Shown piece after piece: positions 5,827-36,733 of a DNA stretch of 64,000 bases. The notes beneath the pieces are model-generated. The model had not been told where the DNA came from, ran no database searches, and was given only the letters and a program-made list of their open reading frames with translations. The stretch covers positions 124,001-188,000 of the forward strand of contig PAAJ01000006.1 in the NCBI GenBank assembly GCA_002702575.1, given 5' to 3'. The position numbers and the translations under genes are program-made. Each line of letters starts with the position of its first letter. The stretch's first letter is position 1. Source of the stretch: Phycisphaerae bacterium. Its GTDB lineage: Bacteria; Planctomycetota; Phycisphaerae; Phycisphaerales; SM1A02.

Positions 5827-6402
5827 ATGGGACATGAGCGTGCCGATGGGCTTTCCATGGATGTGCTCTACAGGTTTCCAACTCCTCGACAGGCCCCAGG
5901 CGAGTCATCGGACCGGAAAGGTCCGGGAAGATGGCGTCACACCAGAGTGCTGATGCTCATGGTTGCCGGTGCCTTCCTGGCCGGACTGGCGTTCAAGGCG
6001 GTTTCGGACGCCCGGAAGGACGAGATTCCCACGGCATCGGTCCTCGATATCCGATCACTCGTCATCAAGACCGCCCTCCATCGTCCATTGGATACATCCC
6101 AACCGAGCGGTGGCGTCCTGGGTCCATGGTGGATCCATGCGACGACCTCGGACAACTGGGACCTGCATGGACTCTGTCTTGAAGGCAGTGATGCTCATGT
6201 CGCAGCCAGCAAGGCCCGGATCATCGTCAATGCCGAAGATGACAGTCTCTGTTTCCAGTTGGAAGATGCCGTCATCGTGACACTTCCGGACTCGGATCAT
6301 GAAGGCACCATTGAAAGACATGATTCCATCATGCTCGGACCGGTTCCCATGTCGATCGATGTTCTTTCGGAAGCGGATGCCATCGAGGCTGTTCAATCCT
6401 GA
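5827..6402 (+). CDS. membrane-anchored protein of unknown function
   Basis: About 191 residues; no family recognised. A basic stretch (KGPGRWRHTR) precedes one transmembrane segment VLMLMVAGAFLAGLAF, followed by about 130 residues that are probably outside the cytoplasm, acidic and with mixed beta-like character. The start is uncertain: ATG at 5827 is used, but ATG at 5857 would remove ten residues and leave the membrane segment intact; neither has a clear ribosome site. It is divergent from prpB and convergent with the membrane kinase, whose 3' end it overlaps by 10 bp. Confidence 0.6.
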   Translation: MGHERADGLSMDVLYRFPTPRQAPGESSDRKGPGRWRHTRVLMLMVAGAFLAGLAFKAVSDARKDEIPTASVLDIRSLVIKTALHRPLDTSQPSGGVLGPWWIHATTSDNWDLHGLCLEGSDAHVAASKARIIVNAEDDSLCFQLEDAVIVTLPDSDHEGTIERHDSIMLGPVPMSIDVLSEADAIEAVQS

Positions 6403-6410
6403 ACAGCCTC
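6385..6410. terminator. inverted repeat shared by two convergent gene ends
   Basis: GAGGCTGTTCA, a 4-nt loop (ATCC), then TGAACAGCCTC: a perfect 11-bp stem that contains the stop codons of both converging genes. No T-run follows on either side, so if it terminates transcription it does so as a bidirectional hairpin without the classical U-tract. Because both strands are read through the same palindrome, both proteins end in EAVQ plus one residue. Confidence 0.55.
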
Positions 6411-8324
6411 ACTGTTCGTATTCGAAATCAGTCGTGGTATAGACCAGCGTGCCTGCCATTCATGGGTGAGCATGATCACATCGACATCACCGTCCTCCTG
6501 ATTGCTGTCGATCAGAAGAACAGCCGCATCCAGATCCCGACTCTCCAATGCGTCCCGAACGGCTGGATGAACCGGCTCACGACCTTCTTCAGGACGCGGT
6601 GGCATCACGCTCCGAATCGCGATTTCCGCCTCGACGTCGATCCGTTGAGACCAGCCTGCTCTTGAAAGCTGTTTTCTGAAGGCGTTGATCGTGCTGGAGA
6701 TCGACGGTTGATCGCGCTGGAGATGATCGATGATCAGGAGGCATTGTCCTGGTCTTGAGGATGCTGGAGAAGGAACCTCCGCGAATTCCGCGATCGCAGT
6801 GTTGCTGACAGAGTCTCCCAGATCATTGCTTGAGCTGGATGTCATGAAGAACTGTCCAAGAAGCGTCAAGATCCCAATACCCAGAACGAAACTGGCTGCA
6901 GCTGCAATCCAGGTCGATCGATTGGGATTTGATCTGTTGCTGGCCAGTTGTGTGGATGGTGGAGGTGGTGATGCGGGAGGCACCGGGGTGTGACGACGAA
7001 CCGGTGCGGGTGGTGGTGGAGGTACTGATGTTTGCATTTCCTCGGTGGCAACACCCTGCATCGAAGGAAGGTCCGCCGGGCGAACAGACCATGGATCCGC
7101 GGATTCCAGCAGGATGGCGATATCCCGCAACATCACATCCACATCCGGGTACCGCTGCTCGTAATCGGACATGGCACGATGGACGATCCACCTTGCTGCT
7201 TCGGGTGAGGGTTGGTCGAAGCGACTCAGACCACCGTGTGCCGGGAAGGTGTTTTCAAGGATGTAGTAGAACACCGCACCGGCGGCATAGACGTCGAAAC
7301 GTGTTCCATCGACATCCTGCACCTTGACCCCGCGCAATGCCTGCCGGACGAGTTCTGGATCACGGAAATACTCCGTACCGTGTGTCGTCAATGTCATGGC
7401 CGAAGCCAAAGGGGTGACGAGACCGAGATCAACGAGATGTGCACCTGATTCGTTGATGATGATGTTCTCTGGCTTCACATCCTTGTGCCAAAGACCCTGA
7501 TCGTGATAACTCCGAAGAACATGCAGAAGATCGGACATGATCTGGATCGATCGGGACAGACCATCAGCATCAAGCCCTCGTCCGCCGACGTGGAGTTCGT
7601 CAACCACTTCTCCAAGGTGCTTCCCTGGAATCCAGGGCATGACGTACCAGAAGCGTGATGCGTCCATGTCATGCTCGAGCACGAGACCCAGGCGTCGAGC
7701 GGCATCGAGTGATCGGGATTCCCGCATCATCTGAGGCAACATCGAACCTGCTTCGAGATCAAATGACTTGATCACGACCTTGGATGGCTGCCCTTTCAAT
7801 CTTCGTTGACGATTCGGAAGTGGTTCCGCGATGTAGAGCCGGGCACCGGAACCTCCGGATGTCAGCGTATCGGTGATTCGATAACCCTCGAAGCTGGCAT
7901 TCGAATCCGTATTGGGAATGACGGCCGCTTCATGGACGCTGCGTTCGACCTCATCAAGCGCAACACCGATGCCGACCAGGGCCATCGGTCTTCGAATCAG
8001 GATGCGATACAACGATTGCGCGATACCGGACGCATTGTCGCGAATCACGGACCAGGCTTGATTGGCGGCCGACCATCGACCGAGCACGATCGATCCAAGA
8101 AGCAGTGGCGTCAAGACGATCATGCTGAACAACTGACCGATGATCTTGGAAAGATCCTTGATCGATCCAAACAACCAGTGAACGATGTGCTGGATCACCT
8201 TTCCAATCAATGAACCGATTGCAAAGCCGCCCCTGAGTATGGGGACGAGTATGAACATCACACCCAGTAAGAGTGCACCGATGATCATGGAAATCACAAG
8301 AAATCCCATGAGGGTGGTGATCAT
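6393..8324 (-). CDS. membrane-embedded Ser/Thr kinase-like protein
   Basis: 643 residues. Two hydrophobic regions occupy the first 80 residues. The kinase domain (about 145-410) has SGGSGARLYIA in place of the usual glycine loop, a VVIKSF lysine (about 186), HKDVKPEN (Asp about 292, Asn about 297; HKD instead of HRD) and DLG (Asp about 309) instead of DFG, so the main catalytic residues remain. A proline-rich linker with PPPPP runs leads to a further transmembrane segment (about 491-513) and a C-terminal domain I do not recognise. Its ATG overlaps the sigma-factor stop codon (ATGA), so the two are probably co-translated and functionally linked. Confidence 0.85.
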   Translation of the reverse strand: MITTLMGFLVISMIIGALLLGVMFILVPILRGGFAIGSLIGKVIQHIVHWLFGSIKDLSKIIGQLFSMIVLTPLLLGSIVLGRWSAANQAWSVIRDNASGIAQSLYRILIRRPMALVGIGVALDEVERSVHEAAVIPNTDSNASFEGYRITDTLTSGGSGARLYIAEPLPNRQRRLKGQPSKVVIKSFDLEAGSMLPQMMRESRSLDAARRLGLVLEHDMDASRFWYVMPWIPGKHLGEVVDELHVGGRGLDADGLSRSIQIMSDLLHVLRSYHDQGLWHKDVKPENIIINESGAHLVDLGLVTPLASAMTLTTHGTEYFRDPELVRQALRGVKVQDVDGTRFDVYAAGAVFYYILENTFPAHGGLSRFDQPSPEAARWIVHRAMSDYEQRYPDVDVMLRDIAILLESADPWSVRPADLPSMQGVATEEMQTSVPPPPPAPVRRHTPVPPASPPPPSTQLASNRSNPNRSTWIAAAASFVLGIGILTLLGQFFMTSSSSNDLGDSVSNTAIAEFAEVPSPASSRPGQCLLIIDHLQRDQPSISSTINAFRKQLSRAGWSQRIDVEAEIAIRSVMPPRPEEGREPVHPAVRDALESRDLDAAVLLIDSNQEDGDVDVIMLTHEWQARWSIPRLISNTNSEAVQD

Positions 8325-9061
8325 GGCGCACCAGCCGATCTGGTTTGGGCGTCTTCAGCACGCCGCCTGGCTTCATGGGCGTGATAGATCTCGGCAATGG
8401 CCTCATCAAACAGTCTGTCATCACCCCCAAGTCCAGCCTGGGAAATCTCCGCATGTTCCTCGGGGGTGAAACTCCATTGGGCGACAACGCTCTCAAGGGC
8501 CTCACGCAGCGACTTCCGGACCGACTGTACGTGTCTTGTGATCGTGGCCTCACTGAGCCCGAGCTGCTCTGCAACTCGACGGCCGGTCTGTCCTTCGAAG
8601 ATTCGTAGTCGATAGACCTGAAAGGCAACGAACACCGACTCTGATTCGGTTCGACGGATCGCGGCGTGCACCTTGGCTTCGAAGATGCTCCGCTCATAGG
8701 CAGAATCGACATGGACATCCGCTGCAGGATCGCGATCCCCGAGAGTCACGGCCCGTCGACCTGATCCTCGCTTGATGGCGCCGCGGCGATCGAGTTCGTC
8801 TCCGAGGACATGCTTGGCAATGGCCAGCAGCCATGTCGAGAACCGAACACCCCTGTCTGGATCGAACCGATCGATCGATTTGGACAGGGTCGCCAACGTC
8901 TCCTGGGAAAGATCCCGGATCGTTTCGACTCCGATCCTTCCGCCACCCCAACGACTGAGCTGAGCGCGCAGAACAGGTCCGAAGACCTGCCAGAGTTCAA
9001 ACCAGGCGCCCTCATCGCGGTCTCTGAGTCGACGGACGAATGTAGTCGTCAATTGATGCAT
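8321..9061 (-). CDS. ECF-family RNA polymerase sigma factor
   Basis: 246 residues. Sigma region 2 is visible as ETIRDLSQETLATLSKSIDRFD and RFSTWLLAIAKHVLGDELDRR (about 46-93); region 4 with a helix-turn-helix is seen in GRRVAEQLGLSEATITRHVQSVRKSLREAL (about 158-190). A tail of about 55 residues follows region 4, longer than in minimal ECF factors. GGAG precedes the ATG. Kinase-linked ECF groups are known in planctomycetes, and the ATGA overlap with the downstream membrane kinase fits that arrangement. No anti-sigma factor gene is adjacent, so phosphorylation could replace it (inference). Confidence 0.88.
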   Translation of the reverse strand: MHQLTTTFVRRLRDRDEGAWFELWQVFGPVLRAQLSRWGGGRIGVETIRDLSQETLATLSKSIDRFDPDRGVRFSTWLLAIAKHVLGDELDRRGAIKRGSGRRAVTLGDRDPAADVHVDSAYERSIFEAKVHAAIRRTESESVFVAFQVYRLRIFEGQTGRRVAEQLGLSEATITRHVQSVRKSLREALESVVAQWSFTPEEHAEISQAGLGGDDRLFDEAIAEIYHAHEARRRAEDAQTRSAGAP

Positions 9062-10239: not shown

Positions 10240-11538
10240 TTACCAGGCTTTCTTGATTTCCGCACCCGGATAGTAGAACTCGATCATCTGCCAGAATGAT
10301 TTGCCTGCCTTGTCCATCGCAGCGCTTCCGTATTGACAGAGACCGGCGCCATGTCCGTAGCCGTGCCCCGAGAGTTCGAGTCGACCTCCCCGGGTTCGTC
10401 CCTCGACCCAACCGGAATAGAGCGCACCGCCTGGAAGGGATCTTGATGATTGAAGGAGATCCTCCGAAGTCATCTCCACTCGGCGACCAGCCGTATCCCG
10501 AATCTGGAGCCGAACACCTCGACCGTGTCGATTCCGACCGATGATGATGATTCGCTCCACTGTTCCAATCGCCTTTTCCGGTGACCCCTTTGAAGCAGAT
10601 CGTCGAATCGCACGGCCAAGATCCCGGCCACTGCATTCGCGTGTCCATTCGTAAAGTGGTGCCTCCTGGCAATATCCATCACCAGCATGACCCTTGAGTG
10701 GTGGTACCGCGTTGATCGGATTGGGCCCGATCGCCTCGACACCTGTGGCCGCTCGGCCACCACAGCAACTGCTGAAGTAACCAGGAACCACTTCAGGTCC
10801 CCAGGTCAGGATCATTCCACTGGTCATGTCGCAGGCTTGATGTGATAACGGATCCTCCACAACGCCCAGGTAGACCTGTGAACCAGGCGTGTCCACGACA
10901 TCCCAACGCTTCTTCTGTCGGAGGATGCACTCCATGGTCACGAAGCTTCTGGCAGCAATGGCCTGGGCTGCCTGACACTGGAGACCCCAGTGGCCGAAGA
11001 GTTCACCACTGAGAACACCTGGCAGATACGACTCGATGTCCACGTATTCAATCAGATCCCAGGTCGTTTCCTTCTGGTCGGGTAGATGGACACACCTGAG
11101 TGAACCTGCATATCGGCGGGTTTCTCCCGTGTCGTCGGTCAGTTCAAGTCCGCCTTCCGAAGCAAGACTGATCCAATCCGAGCTTTGAAAGCTGGCTGGA
11201 ACAGTCCAGGTGTCTGCTGCGCGGATGATCCAACCATCCCGATCTCGTCGGACGGTCAATGGTCCCTTTCGAGTGATCATTCGACCATTTCCATCTTCGA
11301 TCGAAACGGTCTGTCCACTGTGTGCAAAATCGACTGGCTCCAGAGATCCGGTCACCTTCCGGATTCGAACACGGACAATCGGTTCATTTTCAGGAATCGG
11401 GAGACGGATACGATCCGGTTGGTCCCTGATTTCATCGGAAATCCGGGTTGCCTTCTGGTCCTCTCGATCTCCACACGATGTGGATCCGACCAGGATCATC
11501 AAGAGACAACATGTCCTGAACCAGAAACGACATCCCAT
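10240..11538 (-). CDS. SpoIID/LytB-domain lipoprotein
   Basis: 432 residues from the ATG giving MGCRFWF. A short lipoprotein-type signal ends at a cysteine (LVGSTSC, Cys 22). The SpoIID domain fills the C-terminal two thirds: IESYLPGVLSGE, QCQAAQAIAARSF, SSCCGGRAATG and the late GHGYGHGAGLCQYGS are its standard signatures. In Bacillus SpoIID cleaves denuded peptidoglycan glycan strands as a lytic transglycosylase; related LytB proteins enhance amidases. Here it would act on the wall from the inner or outer membrane. Longer starts (11580, 11697) exist but put the signal peptide too far inside. Confidence 0.88.
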   Translation of the reverse strand: MGCRFWFRTCCLLMILVGSTSCGDREDQKATRISDEIRDQPDRIRLPIPENEPIVRVRIRKVTGSLEPVDFAHSGQTVSIEDGNGRMITRKGPLTVRRDRDGWIIRAADTWTVPASFQSSDWISLASEGGLELTDDTGETRRYAGSLRCVHLPDQKETTWDLIEYVDIESYLPGVLSGELFGHWGLQCQAAQAIAARSFVTMECILRQKKRWDVVDTPGSQVYLGVVEDPLSHQACDMTSGMILTWGPEVVPGYFSSCCGGRAATGVEAIGPNPINAVPPLKGHAGDGYCQEAPLYEWTRECSGRDLGRAIRRSASKGSPEKAIGTVERIIIIGRNRHGRGVRLQIRDTAGRRVEMTSEDLLQSSRSLPGGALYSGWVEGRTRGGRLELSGHGYGHGAGLCQYGSAAMDKAGKSFWQMIEFYYPGAEIKKAW

Positions 11539-11626
11539 ACTGATCACTTCGGCGGATCGTGGGGTGCGACTGGAATTCATCACAGGGATCGGATCATCGT
11601 CTTGTGATCCCAAGAAAGCAGAGGAC

Positions 11627-12556
11627 CTAGTCGAGGGTACGGAGCTCGAGGTTGTGGCTCTGAAGAACTTCTCGAACCTCATCAAGACTCGTTGCACCGA
11701 AATTCTTCACACCCATCAACTCGGCTTCGGTTCTTGTGGCCAGATCACCGACCGTCTGAACGCCCAGGAGCTGAAGCGCCTTGCGAGCCCTCACGGAGAG
11801 ATCCATCTGTGTGATGGACTTGTTGAGAACCGCTTCGGATGCCCGACCCTTGATCTCGTCATAGATCTCCTGGCGGACCCGGCTGTAGTGGTTCTGAAGA
11901 CTTTGACCGAGACGCAGTCCCTTGGAGGAGAGCATCTGATTGATCTCGACCAGTGATGTCTCCCCGAAGTTCTTGTAGCTCAGCAGTTCCGCCTCGCTGA
12001 CCTTCAGGAGATCGCCGAGTGTTCTGATCTGCATCTTCTTGAGGCAGTTGCGTGCCCGGACGGACAGTTCGAAATCCGTGACAGGTGTGTCGAGGAGCGC
12101 GTTTCTCTTGGCCATGTCCCTGGCCTGCTCTTCGTCGTAGTACATGTCCTTCGATGAACGAACATCCAACATGTAGAGACGAGCACGTTCGTGGTTTGGA
12201 TCGGTATCCAGAATCTGCCTGAGGCAGCGTTCTGCGCCGTTGATGTCTCCACGATCCTCGAGAATCACGGCAAGGTTGAGCAGCACATTGATCGATGGAC
12301 GGCTCTGCCTTCGGACCAGTTCCTCGTAGAGCGATACGGCCTCGTCCTCTTCACCAACCAGATCAAGGTGGTAGGCCAGTCTGAAGGCCGCCTCATCACT
12401 GGAGGATGCTGCTGAACGAAGTGCCTCGATCGCGGCCAGTCGATCACCTTCCTGCTCATGACGCTGAGCGGTCTGAAGGGCCTCGCTGGCATTCACGGTC
12501 TTGCTTGTAGCACCACCGATGACGGTGTCGAGTGCGTTGGAAGGATCCTGCGACAT
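11627..12556 (-). CDS. TPR protein with two RNA polymerase alpha-CTD-like domains
   Basis: 309 residues from the ATG with GGAG upstream. Residues about 25-130 form TPR-like helices. Two tandem modules resembling the C-terminal domain of the RNA polymerase alpha subunit follow: about 158-210 (TDFELSVRARNCLKKM, then NFGETSLVEI) and about 247-300 (TQMDLSVRARKALQLL, then NFGATSLDEV). In E. coli alpha-CTD, Arg265, Asn268, Cys269, Gly296, Lys298 and Ser299 contact DNA. Module 1 keeps the Arg, Asn, Cys, Gly and Ser equivalents but has Thr for Lys298; module 2 also loses the Asn and Cys. There is no alpha N-terminal domain, so it is not RpoA. Role unknown, probably transcription-related. Confidence 0.85.
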   Translation of the reverse strand: MSQDPSNALDTVIGGATSKTVNASEALQTAQRHEQEGDRLAAIEALRSAASSSDEAAFRLAYHLDLVGEEDEAVSLYEELVRRQSRPSINVLLNLAVILEDRGDINGAERCLRQILDTDPNHERARLYMLDVRSSKDMYYDEEQARDMAKRNALLDTPVTDFELSVRARNCLKKMQIRTLGDLLKVSEAELLSYKNFGETSLVEINQMLSSKGLRLGQSLQNHYSRVRQEIYDEIKGRASEAVLNKSITQMDLSVRARKALQLLGVQTVGDLATRTEAELMGVKNFGATSLDEVREVLQSHNLELRTLD

Positions 12557-32446: not shown

Positions 32447-35400
32447 ATGAACGAGATCATCCAACACCTTGATTCAGCCTCTCGACGCACACGAAGACTG
32501 CTGATCGGTCGTCGTGTCGCCGTGTTGATCTCATCCTTCCTGGTGTTGCTCTCCATACTGATCCTTCTGGACTGGTTGATCCGTTTCTCACCCGGAATTC
32601 GGTCGACATCACTGGTGCTGGTCATGGTTGTCTTCATCTCATGGACCATCCTCTGGTTGTTTCCAGTGCTCTCCTTTCTACCCACCAGGCATCGGATGGC
32701 ATTGCAGCTGGAGGACCGGGAGCCGAGTCTCAGGGGTTACCTGGCATCCAGTCTGGAATTCGAATCCAGTGGTGTATCGGAGACCAGTTCACTGGCAGCT
32801 GCAAGTGTGCTCGAGACTCGTCGGAGATTCCAACGGGTGTCCGTCGATTCGATCATCAACCCCTCGCCAGCAAGATGGTCACTGGCACTTCTTCTGATCA
32901 TTCTGGGGTGCAGTCTGATCACCATCATCCTCGAGCCGGGATTCACACGACTGGGATTCACTCGGGTGATGGCACCCTGGTCGTCAATCGAGTGGCCACC
33001 ACGAACAGCCGTATCGTCACGGATGCATGAAGTTGTTCCTGAACATGGTGTCCATGGTCAGGGCATTCCATTGTTGCTTCGTGCGGAGAACAGAACCCGT
33101 GATCACACGGATGACCCTGTAGAAGCTGTTTATCGCATCATCGAGGACGGTGTCCCATCGGAGTGGAACACGGTCATGTTGACTTATCAACGTGACGGCA
33201 TCCATGAACGTCTCATCTCGACGAGCGGTGAAGCGATTGAAGTCGGTTTCATGACGAGTGATGCACAGACCGAGCATGAGCGCATCATCCTGATGCCCTT
33301 GCCACAGGTCACCTCACTGACTCTGGACATCGAACCTCCCCCACATGCCGTTCCATGGTTGAAGGATCGACGAATCGAATCCACGGATACAGGTCCTCGA
33401 CTGGATGTGATTCGACCACCTGTTCTCCAGGGCTCAAGGGCCCGCCTGGATCTGCAGCTCAATCGATCGATTCTGATTCCTGATGAGGGACCATCCCGCT
33501 CCGAATGGCTGATGAGAACCTTTGGTCTTGCCGAAGGTGTGGAACCACCCGAACTCATGGTCGATGAAGATGATCCCAGGAAACTCTCCTTGACATGGCA
33601 AGCGGATGACACGCGGCGAATGTTGATATCACTTCAGGACGAGTTCGGTCTGGAGAGTGTCGAACCGGTTCCGGTCTATATTCCGGTCGAAGAGGACCTG
33701 GCTCCGGATGTCGTTCTGGTCGAACCGGAGCAAGACCTCGACATTCTTCCAACGGCGGTGATTCCACTGGTTGCCGAAGCTGTCGACAACCTTCCTCTGC
33801 ACAGAGTCGGAATCACGGTCATGCGGGGTGAAGGTGAACAGGTCGACGGCCATGTCAAGGAAGTCGAAACCGAGCGAAGTCGGATCAGTACACCATTCGA
33901 TGTGTCGGCGTCAGGTGTCGTTGAAGGTGATCTTCTTGAAGTCCGTGGCATCGCTTCGGATCGATGGCGGGATGAATCCGGGAACCACCGTGAATCCAGC
34001 TCACGTGTTCGAACACTCCGAGTCATCTCTGAAACAGAGTTTCTCACACAGCTTCGTGATCAGATGTCACTGCTCGAACAGCGAGCGATGGATCTTGAAG
34101 ACACCCAGAAGTCGGTACAGAACCAGTACCAGGACATCATCAGTACGACTCAGGAAGATGATGATTCGATCGAGACTGAAGATGCGGACAACCTCTCATC
34201 CGAGCAACAGGATGGGACACCGTCGGAGTTCAGTGACTCCGAAACCAGATACCGGCAGTCTCTTGAGAGAAGACAATCCGACATTTCAAGACGTCTGTCA
34301 GATCAACAGAATCAGGTCGAAGCCATCCGGGACTGGATCGGCGACAACATGTTGGATGAGGAACGCATCGAATCCGTCCTGGATCAGGTCGAGGAGGCCT
34401 TGGCCGATGCTCAGGAGTCATCCGCGGAAGCCATGCGTTCCATGGAGGCATCACGGCCATCGGAACAATCCGAATCATCTCCAGAAGGAACGGACCCTTT
34501 CGATTCGACCGAAACGGCGGCTGAGCAGGATCAGGAAACACTTCAGTCCCAGCAGGATGTCCGTGAGGCGCTCCAGGATGTCGTTGCTGCGTTGGCAGAG
34601 GATCAGGAAACATGGTTGATCTCCAGACAGGTGGAGAACATCCAATCCCGTCAGCAATCTCTCCAGGATCTCACCCGATCGCTCTCTGAACAGACTCGTG
34701 GCCAGTACATGGATGAATTGTCCCCCGAGATCCAGAGTGCCATCGAGGATGCGGCGCGTGAGCAGGAGGCATTGACCGATGCCATGTCTCAACTGACCGA
34801 ATCGATGACAGCGCAGGCCGAGGCCATGCGTGAGATGGATCCAAGTGGTGCATCCGCCATGGAACAGGCGGCTGAACTTGCCGAGCAGCAGGATGTCGAA
34901 TCGATGATGTCCGAGGCCGCCGAGGAGATCGAACAAGGTCGTCTCGAGATGGCTGGTGGATCCCAGCAGGAGATCATGGAAGCACTGCAATCCATGCAGG
35001 AAGCCATGTCACCAGATCAACAAGACAGGATCGCTGATCTTTTGAGGAGACTTGTGGATCTCGAGACAGCCATCGAGGAACTGATTGATCTTCAGGCTGA
35101 TGAACTGGTGACGCTCGATGATGCAATCGTGCGAAATGATTTTTCCGGCCGTGATGCAGCCGTGATCGAGATCAGAAAACGAACACTGGCCGTATCCGAT
35201 GAGGCAAGAAACCGATCCGATGAGGAACGTGGTCTTTCACGAAGATTGGATCGAGCTGGTGATTCACAATCCGATTCCATCTCCGTCCTTCGCGCTGTTC
35301 CAGTCGATGGAGCCTCTGCACGGGATCACCAGCTTGTCGCTCTTCAGCAGTTGAGGTCGGCACTTGAAGATCTCAAACAGGTGGAAGCCGAGGCTCAACA

Positions 35401-36733
35401 GGAGATGGTGGAAGCTGATCGAGCCTCCCTGGCCCAGTCCTATCGGGAGCTGGCTCAACAGCAGGTGGACATCCAGGTCAAGACAAACCCGATTCTGGTC
35501 GCGGATCCATCGAAGCGCCGAGTCCGACACGAAGCCAGAAGGTTGTCTCTTGATCAGGAGACCATCGGAGAGGGTTCACGCACATTGCGTGAATCCAACG
35601 AGGAAATCAACGAGCGACCGATCTTCATGCTCATGCACACCCGCATCGAGGAAGCATCGAAATCGAGTCAGGAAGCACTCTCGGATGCACAACTCGGTCC
35701 ACGAATTCAACGCCTTCAGAGCAGGATCGCACAGGATCTTTTCGCGATGGCTGAATCGCTTGAGCAGGAGGATGGTGCAGAGGAGGAGTTCGAACGCGGT
35801 TCCCAATCCGGTGGTTCCGGTTCCCAGGGGCAAGCGGGTTCAGGTGAGGGTGAGGATGGTGTTCTGCCCCCGATTGCCGAACTGCGTCTTCTGAGATCAC
35901 TGCAGCTCGATGTCATGAACTCGACACGGGATCTTGATCGAGATGACCTGATTGATCCCGAGGACCGTCTGCGTGAAATCCGACGTCTGTCCGATCTTCA
36001 GTCCGATCTGTCCAGACTCGGCCAGGAGATGTTCGACCGCCATACCAACGATGGCATGTCCGACGTGATGCCACAGGAAGCGATTCCTCCTTCATTCAAT
36101 CTTCAGCTTCAGGACACCGGGATCGAAGAACCGGGTGAACAGGCCGCAAGACGTCGCCCAAGATCACTTGATGAACTTCTTGGTCTTGAGGAACAGAATG
36201 AAGGGAGTGTTGATGCCACACCACTGCCAGCATCACACGACCCATTGGAAGCGATCGTCGAGGAGATGGAGCGGGCTGCGATGCTCATCGGTGAGGATCT
36301 GGTGACCGGACCTCCAACACAACGTCTTCAACAGGACATTCTTCTCCGGATCGACAGTCTGATCGATCAGGCGAACGAACAACAGTCCAGCCAGTCATCA
36401 AGCAGTCAATCTTCAAGTTCGAATCAGAATCAACAGCAGAATCAGCAATCCAGACCCGAGCAGTCCAACCAGCAACAGCAGGCACAGGGTTCCATCACTG
36501 AAGCACAGTTGAATGAAGGTGACGAGGGTGACGAACGATCTCCGTTGTCCGGTCTGGAGGAAACCAGGTTGGGTGGTGCGCTCGAAGAGACGGATCAGGA
36601 ATGGGGCGCCTTGCCTGCTCGAGTCAGGGATCTGCTTCGACAGGGAAGGCGTGATACCTACTCCAACGTCTACGAGCAGTTGACGGGAGAGTATTACAGA
36701 CGACTCGCGGAGGAACAGAATGCTCCCAAGTGA
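32447..36733 (+). CDS. giant membrane-anchored coiled-coil protein (DUF4175-like)
   Basis: 1428 residues. Three membrane helices lie near the N-terminus (about 24-45, 55-77, 147-167). A beta-rich region (about 180-520) is predicted to be outside the cytoplasm, then long Glu/Gln/Ser/Arg-rich heptad repeats run from about 530 to 1250. The C-terminus (about 1300-1345) is a Gln/Ser low-complexity tract (QSSQSSSSQ and similar) before a short conserved-looking tail (LPARVRDLLRQGRRD). The layout resembles DUF4175-type proteins found next to MoxR/VWA genes. It may be a scaffold spanning the envelope. The last 14 bp overlap the next gene. Confidence 0.8.
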   Translation: MNEIIQHLDSASRRTRRLLIGRRVAVLISSFLVLLSILILLDWLIRFSPGIRSTSLVLVMVVFISWTILWLFPVLSFLPTRHRMALQLEDREPSLRGYLASSLEFESSGVSETSSLAAASVLETRRRFQRVSVDSIINPSPARWSLALLLIILGCSLITIILEPGFTRLGFTRVMAPWSSIEWPPRTAVSSRMHEVVPEHGVHGQGIPLLLRAENRTRDHTDDPVEAVYRIIEDGVPSEWNTVMLTYQRDGIHERLISTSGEAIEVGFMTSDAQTEHERIILMPLPQVTSLTLDIEPPPHAVPWLKDRRIESTDTGPRLDVIRPPVLQGSRARLDLQLNRSILIPDEGPSRSEWLMRTFGLAEGVEPPELMVDEDDPRKLSLTWQADDTRRMLISLQDEFGLESVEPVPVYIPVEEDLAPDVVLVEPEQDLDILPTAVIPLVAEAVDNLPLHRVGITVMRGEGEQVDGHVKEVETERSRISTPFDVSASGVVEGDLLEVRGIASDRWRDESGNHRESSSRVRTLRVISETEFLTQLRDQMSLLEQRAMDLEDTQKSVQNQYQDIISTTQEDDDSIETEDADNLSSEQQDGTPSEFSDSETRYRQSLERRQSDISRRLSDQQNQVEAIRDWIGDNMLDEERIESVLDQVEEALADAQESSAEAMRSMEASRPSEQSESSPEGTDPFDSTETAAEQDQETLQSQQDVREALQDVVAALAEDQETWLISRQVENIQSRQQSLQDLTRSLSEQTRGQYMDELSPEIQSAIEDAAREQEALTDAMSQLTESMTAQAEAMREMDPSGASAMEQAAELAEQQDVESMMSEAAEEIEQGRLEMAGGSQQEIMEALQSMQEAMSPDQQDRIADLLRRLVDLETAIEELIDLQADELVTLDDAIVRNDFSGRDAAVIEIRKRTLAVSDEARNRSDEERGLSRRLDRAGDSQSDSISVLRAVPVDGASARDHQLVALQQLRSALEDLKQVEAEAQQEMVEADRASLAQSYRELAQQQVDIQVKTNPILVADPSKRRVRHEARRLSLDQETIGEGSRTLRESNEEINERPIFMLMHTRIEEASKSSQEALSDAQLGPRIQRLQSRIAQDLFAMAESLEQEDGAEEEFERGSQSGGSGSQGQAGSGEGEDGVLPPIAELRLLRSLQLDVMNSTRDLDRDDLIDPEDRLREIRRLSDLQSDLSRLGQEMFDRHTNDGMSDVMPQEAIPPSFNLQLQDTGIEEPGEQAARRRPRSLDELLGLEEQNEGSVDATPLPASHDPLEAIVEEMERAAMLIGEDLVTGPPTQRLQQDILLRIDSLIDQANEQQSSQSSSSQSSSSNQNQQQNQQSRPEQSNQQQQAQGSITEAQLNEGDEGDERSPLSGLEETRLGGALEETDQEWGALPARVRDLLRQGRRDTYSNVYEQLTGEYYRRLAEEQNAPK

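Follow-up and report, generated by a model that had tools for sequence, protein, structure and literature searches.

The window, by which we mean the whole 64,000-nucleotide stretch of DNA that was analysed, carries on its minus strand a gene whose product consists of TPR repeats followed by two true alphaCTDs, detached from the polymerase to which such domains normally belong. The features of this gene and of its downstream neighbor are collected in Table 1.

Table 1. Position of the TPR-alphaCTD gene, its domains and the adjacent gene in the window (residue positions of determinants in E. coli alpha numbering)
Feature	Position	Strand	Basis or detail
SpoIID-domain lipoprotein-like gene, downstream and co-directional	10240..11580	-	ATG near 11580; the ORF caller start at 11697 overlaps the TPR-alphaCTD gene
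Whole gene, TPR / tandem alphaCTD protein, 309 aa, single copy	11627..12556	-	ATG at 12556, stop ends at 11627
alphaCTD module 2, residues ~240-309; R265, N294, G296, S299 and E302 equivalents; N268K, C269A; 261 determinant gone	11630..11839	-	Sequence matches
Inter-module linker, partly helical, residues ~222-239	11839..11890	-	AlphaFold
alphaCTD module 1, residues ~150-221; R265, N268, C269, N294, G296, S299 and E302 equivalents; acidic 259/261 pair	11893..12109	-	Sequence and structure matches
Junction motif S-x-x-M-x-Y-D-E-E, residues 135-145, between TPR capping helix and alphaCTD1	12122..12154	-	Conservation within and beyond the order
TPR domain, residues ~23-139, about 3.5 repeats and a capping helix	12140..12490	-	Pfam TPR_14/TPR_2; AlphaFold helices 23-138

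Identity of the gene product and its surroundings

Pfam searches with the 309-aa protein placed PF03118 (RNA_pol_A_CTD) on two stretches with E=6.6e-42 and 141.5 bits against a cut-off of 23.8, and TPR_14, TPR_2 and TPR_19 all exceeded their cut-offs. Compared with the PDB by phmmer, module 1 retrieved RNA polymerase alpha chains, including the E. coli alphaCTD 1coo at E=5e-14, and module 2 searched alone retrieved RNA polymerase alpha chains only, the best being the alphaCTD of the Spx complex 1z3e (E=3e-11). The AlphaFold2 model of the full protein is confident for each domain (pLDDT 84.6, pTM 0.45). With Foldseek, its alphaCTD part superimposed at 0.7-0.8 Å and 46-48% identity on 9zum, an alphaCTD bound to AT DNA, and 3n4m, an alphaCTD-CAP-DNA complex, while the N-terminal part matched TPR structures, as it also did in a structural comparison with Z of about 16. 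When the two-module fragment was modelled alone, the domains were again confident and pTM was 0.48, so the mutual arrangement of the alphaCTDs appears not to be fixed in the model and a flexible tether is probable. The conserved motif at the junction with the TPR domain is predicted to act as a hinge or partner site.

The protein is not itself an RpoA. RpoA models scored far under their cut-off (125.8 bits versus 227.8 for TIGR02027), the alpha N-terminal dimerisation domain is missing with TPRs in its place, and the genuine rpoA of the same genome, with a normal N-terminal domain and one alphaCTD, lies on contig C10. An earlier note made from the sequence had described two modules resembling alphaCTD, joined to TPRs and without the alpha N-terminal domain, and the double PF03118 match and the PDB and Foldseek results bear this out. 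It had also named the alternative that the modules are generic helix-hairpin-helix domains. alphaCTDs are part of the wider helix-hairpin-helix fold and a weak HHH_5 match does exist, but at 4.6e-4 it falls under its cut-off, and the PF03118 match, the module 2 matches in the PDB and the close Foldseek alignments with alphaCTD structures refute this identity, to which we assign a negligible probability.

A second copy of the gene is present in the assembly, at 117472-118383 of contig C25 (G000), and corresponds to window positions 11630-12556. As identity is 99.87% across all 3183 bases compared, C25 is a near-duplicate contig of the same MAG rather than the carrier of a paralogue, and the 8.2% contamination listed for the assembly agrees with the presence of near-duplicate contigs. 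Among the genomes inspected, the gene count is one per genome.

Of 80 related loci in the order, 62 have a co-directional SpoIID-domain gene next to the TPR-alphaCTD gene, a probable operon partner. In other families of the class that are related, tgt comes next after SpoIID, with yajC and a large gene, maybe secDF, behind it in some of them; in other lineages, tgt or ruvA comes directly after the TPR-alphaCTD gene. No transcription gene is consistently linked among the neighbourhoods compared, so gene context provides no functional clue, and operon context was set aside as a guide to function with SpoIID as neighbor in the order and class and Tgt-YajC or RuvA elsewhere. Separately, an ECF-type sigma factor gene (8321-9061, minus strand) shares four bases with the start of a Ser/Thr kinase gene (6393-8324), and the two form a coupled sigma-kinase pair (6393-9061); in 14 of the 80 related loci, the sigma gene occurs close to the TPR-alphaCTD gene. 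The window also contains a 1428-aa open reading frame (32447-36733, plus strand) for which Pfam gave no matches at E<=1e-5.

Distribution, inheritance and constraint across Planctomycetota

The earlier note had suggested looking for the TPR plus double alphaCTD architecture elsewhere. A profile of 24 rows was run against 392 Planctomycetota genomes representing 267 genera and about 100 families, and yielded some match in 390 of them and a long, family-type match (E<=1e-40; hand-counted from the match table) in 368. The remaining 24 genomes, mostly incomplete MAGs, gave an RpoA- or TPR-type match only, a fragment, or nothing. Among good-quality genomes (completeness of 90% or more, contamination of 5% or less; n=216), 213 had the long match, and one of the three exceptions, G143, has a fragment at a contig edge. 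The gene is near-universal among the 392 genomes of Planctomycetota that were searched, and its full-length recurrence in hundreds of genomes means that the architecture is not a product of chance. Five genomes of the window's own family that are 88-96% complete (G400, G402, G404, G415 and G421) showed RpoA-type alphaCTD matches only, which may reflect secondary losses or gaps in the assemblies.

A scan of species genomes for close relatives returned 296, of which the best 80 were all long matches and almost all from Phycisphaerales, Phycisphaerae or other Planctomycetota. No relatives were found in viral contigs, and there was no full-length match in the phage, plasmid and viral-contig collections; the phage and plasmid matches listed were alphaCTD-only, mostly RpoA or short alphaCTD-like proteins. 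A mobile or viral origin was rejected on these results. In the full-protein tree (FastTree), sequences cluster by family, order and class, and this agreement with taxonomy indicates vertical inheritance; one sequence labelled “Phyc” that falls within family f31 is probably L145, which comes from an f31 genome. The vertically inherited combination of TPRs, junction motif and alphaCTD1, with or without alphaCTD2, in one open reading frame defines a Planctomycetota TPR-alphaCTD family, into which the window gene fits.

Family members outside the order are usually 430-510 aa long with additional N-terminal TPRs, and the junction S..M.YDEE is conserved both within and beyond the order. At the domain level, 148 of 151 family proteins contain two alphaCTDs and three contain one that is recognisable. 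In families f49 and f97, L131 and L132 have no module 2 and L122 has a degenerate one, with module 1 and the TPRs retained in each, and these lineages are natural experiments on the role of module 2. In two genomes, G365 and G324, the TPR and alphaCTD parts were found in separate open reading frames. In both, the pieces abut or overlap (…YYDE/YDE… and …LK/LK…), and we read these splits as probable assembly breaks at contig ends and not as gene fission. The pairs L145/L138 and L146/L137, from two genomes of different families, share the same break point between TPR and alphaCTD1, a curious coincidence that is probably an assembly artefact.

The two modules differ in how strongly they are constrained. 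In the 28 genomes that carry all three domains, pairwise identity averaged 63% for module 1, 53% for the RpoA alphaCTD and 47% for module 2, and for 80% of genome pairs it was higher in module 1 than in the RpoA alphaCTD. Of the 49 module 1 sequences in the tree, 48 fall into a single clade (support 0.82); the 62 columns of the alignment limit deeper inference. Module 1 is therefore more constrained than the RpoA alphaCTD, and module 2 is under weaker constraint, with some lineages doing without it.

Equivalents of known DNA- and sigma-contact residues

Arg265 is present in every module 1 except one gapped row, in all 148 module 2 sequences examined and in every planctomycete RpoA. In the window, the 265 determinant (R265, N268, C269, N294, G296, K298, S299, E302) is complete in module 1 except for K298, and across the family this module has N268 in 84-93% and C269 in 90% of sequences and also keeps N294, G296, S299 and E302. 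In module 2, these last four residues are nearly always kept across the family, position 268 is mostly Lys or Arg, and position 269 mostly Ala or Cys; folding may be the reason for the conservation of G296, S299 and E302. Both modules have Arg at position 267, which in RpoA is mostly S, N or T, and their mean net charges are +1.1 (module 1) and +0.5 (module 2), compared to -0.5 for planctomycete RpoA alphaCTDs.

The residues that the earlier note had assigned were read correctly, namely R265, N268, C269, G296 and S299 in module 1, Thr at 298 in both modules, and N268K and C269A in module 2. Two of the meanings it had attached to them were not borne out. The missing Lys298 is no special feature, since 97% of planctomycete RpoA alphaCTDs have Thr at this position. 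Nor is the division into one DNA-contacting and one protein-contacting module supported, because module 2 keeps R265, N294, G296, S299 and E302 with Lys or Arg at 268 and need not be protein-contacting; judged from these residues, it is still compatible with DNA contact.

On the E. coli UP element, the proximal alphaCTD contacts both DNA and sigma region 4, and the distal alphaCTD contacts DNA only. The asymmetry between the modules, as far as residues can tell, would fit such a division into “DNA plus sigma4” and “DNA only” better than one into “DNA” and “protein”. The acidic pair at 259/261 (D259/E261) is kept in module 1 and is drifting in module 2. In E. coli, alpha D259 and E261 contact R603 of sigma70 (PMC5511352; PMC7419079), and the equivalent sigma4 arginine was present in the housekeeping sigma factor of all ten genomes checked, in the sequence HPVR or HPIR.

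Possible functions and relation to known systems

The reading that we favour, with a confidence somewhat short of even, is that the protein is a trans-acting factor for transcription initiation at promoters, made of RNA polymerase parts. Upstream of promoters, the two tethered alphaCTDs would sit in neighbouring minor grooves of AT-rich DNA, just as the alphaCTD pair of the polymerase does on an UP element. Module 1 would resemble the proximal alphaCTD, binding DNA through its 265 determinant and sigma region 4 through its acidic 259/261 patch, and module 2 would resemble the distal alphaCTD and bind DNA only. The TPR domain would dock a partner, either RNA polymerase itself or a regulatory or signalling protein, and would in this way adjust how polymerase is recruited to a set of promoters throughout the phylum. 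We infer that the protein binds DNA, touches sigma and docks a partner, and the sign of regulation is likewise inferred. Observations in favour of an initiation factor are the alphaCTD identity of the modules, the invariant R265 and nearly invariant N294, G296, S299 and E302, the Arg267 and more positive charge of both modules, the D259/E261 pair together with the sigma arginine, the near-universality and vertical inheritance of the gene and the constraint on module 1. Weighing against it are the loss of N268 in module 2, the absence of K298 (also from the RpoA of the phylum) and neighbors that are not transcription genes (SpoIID, tgt, yajC, ruvA). In addition, alphaCTD-like DNA residues are no guarantee of function, as Thermus illustrates: its RNA polymerase, with an alphaCTD that lacks some of these residues, shows no UP-element response (PMC5511352). 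In its most far-reaching form, which we consider rather unlikely, the protein would be a phylum-specific global initiation factor whose TPR adaptor adds a second, trans-acting alphaCTD pair, so that upstream DNA would be read by four alphaCTDs of two kinds and not by two.

The earlier note had suggested that the protein could tune UP-element use or bind activators in competition with RpoA, and it may do so. A pure form of such competition, in which the tandem alphaCTDs act as a decoy that occupies UP elements, sigma4 or activators and dampens alphaCTD-dependent promoters, is in our estimate unlikely. Because the alpha N-terminal domain is missing, the protein should not enter core, and a single gene acting in trans with its DNA and sigma4 surfaces retained would suit a decoy; a pure decoy, however, would have no need for a conserved TPR domain and junction motif, and conservation stronger than that of the RpoA alphaCTD would be unexpected. 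Single copies in nearly all genomes, vertical inheritance and core-gene behaviour would instead be in keeping with a stable accessory subunit of RNA polymerase, its TPR domain bound to core, alpha or sigma and its extra alphaCTDs brought to most promoters. For a core subunit, the apparent absence from the five genomes of the window's own family is hard to accommodate, even if gaps in the MAGs may explain it, and we regard this explanation as improbable. We give similarly little credence to alphaCTDs repurposed as AT-DNA or protein binders for a role other than initiation, in a nucleoid, DNA-repair or structural adaptor. The divergence of module 2 and the housekeeping nature of the adjoining genes (SpoIID, Tgt and YajC, with RuvA in other lineages), which are unrelated to transcription, speak for such a role, but it leaves the acidic sigma4-contact pair of module 1 unexplained.

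The alphaCTD is a common bacterial interface of promoter upstream DNA, activators and RNA polymerase. If a detached and nearly universal second alphaCTD pair does act as a factor for transcription initiation, this step would be wired in the phylum unlike in E. coli and B. subtilis, and confirmation would make the protein a rare global transcription factor built from a domain of an RNA polymerase subunit. Most valuable among the new facts is the presence of a strongly constrained, detached alphaCTD in a near-universal, vertically inherited gene of the phylum, and planctomycete researchers gain one specific gene to study. Searches of open-access literature turned up no account of this architecture or of what it does, in line with the earlier note, which knew of no experimental description. 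Automatic annotations in public databases presumably already show alphaCTD and TPR domains for proteins of this family. With no experimental description found and the gene in nearly every planctomycete genome examined, the protein is a good candidate for a phylum-wide global transcription factor. The main text of an essential-gene (TraDIS) study of P. limnophila lists 108 essential proteins that are phylum-specific and have no known function, and contains no mention of the TPR-alphaCTD gene (PMC10632474).

Several known systems share part of this arrangement. The alphaCTD of RpoA has the same fold as both modules, R265, most of the 265 determinant and the helix-hairpin-helix turn NFG-x-T/K-S, with 43-50% mean identity. 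Unlike RpoA, the protein described here has two alphaCTDs per chain, fused to TPRs and without the alpha N-terminal dimerisation domain, and its module 2 has N268K and lacks the 261 determinant. Small stand-alone alphaCTD-like proteins (NCBIfam NF005841, PRK07758, 95 aa; the “DNA binding protein” of Microbacterium phages such as Atraxi) likewise have an alphaCTD-like domain outside RpoA but are short, with a single module, no TPR and weak similarity, the NCBIfam match being far under its cut-off. The BREX protein PglW (NF033442) and the beta' model PRK14906 (NF011498) contain an alphaCTD-like segment inside another protein, as is the case here, but the match is local and far under the family cut-offs, and its context is a kinase or beta' without the TPR-tandem architecture. 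Spx and other alphaCTD-binding regulators demonstrate that regulatory proteins dock on alphaCTD surfaces, and in the SicA-InvF-alphaCTD system a TPR protein, the chaperone SicA, has been proposed to take part in alphaCTD-dependent activation. In these last systems the alphaCTD belongs to RNA polymerase, whereas in the planctomycete family it sits in the TPR protein itself.
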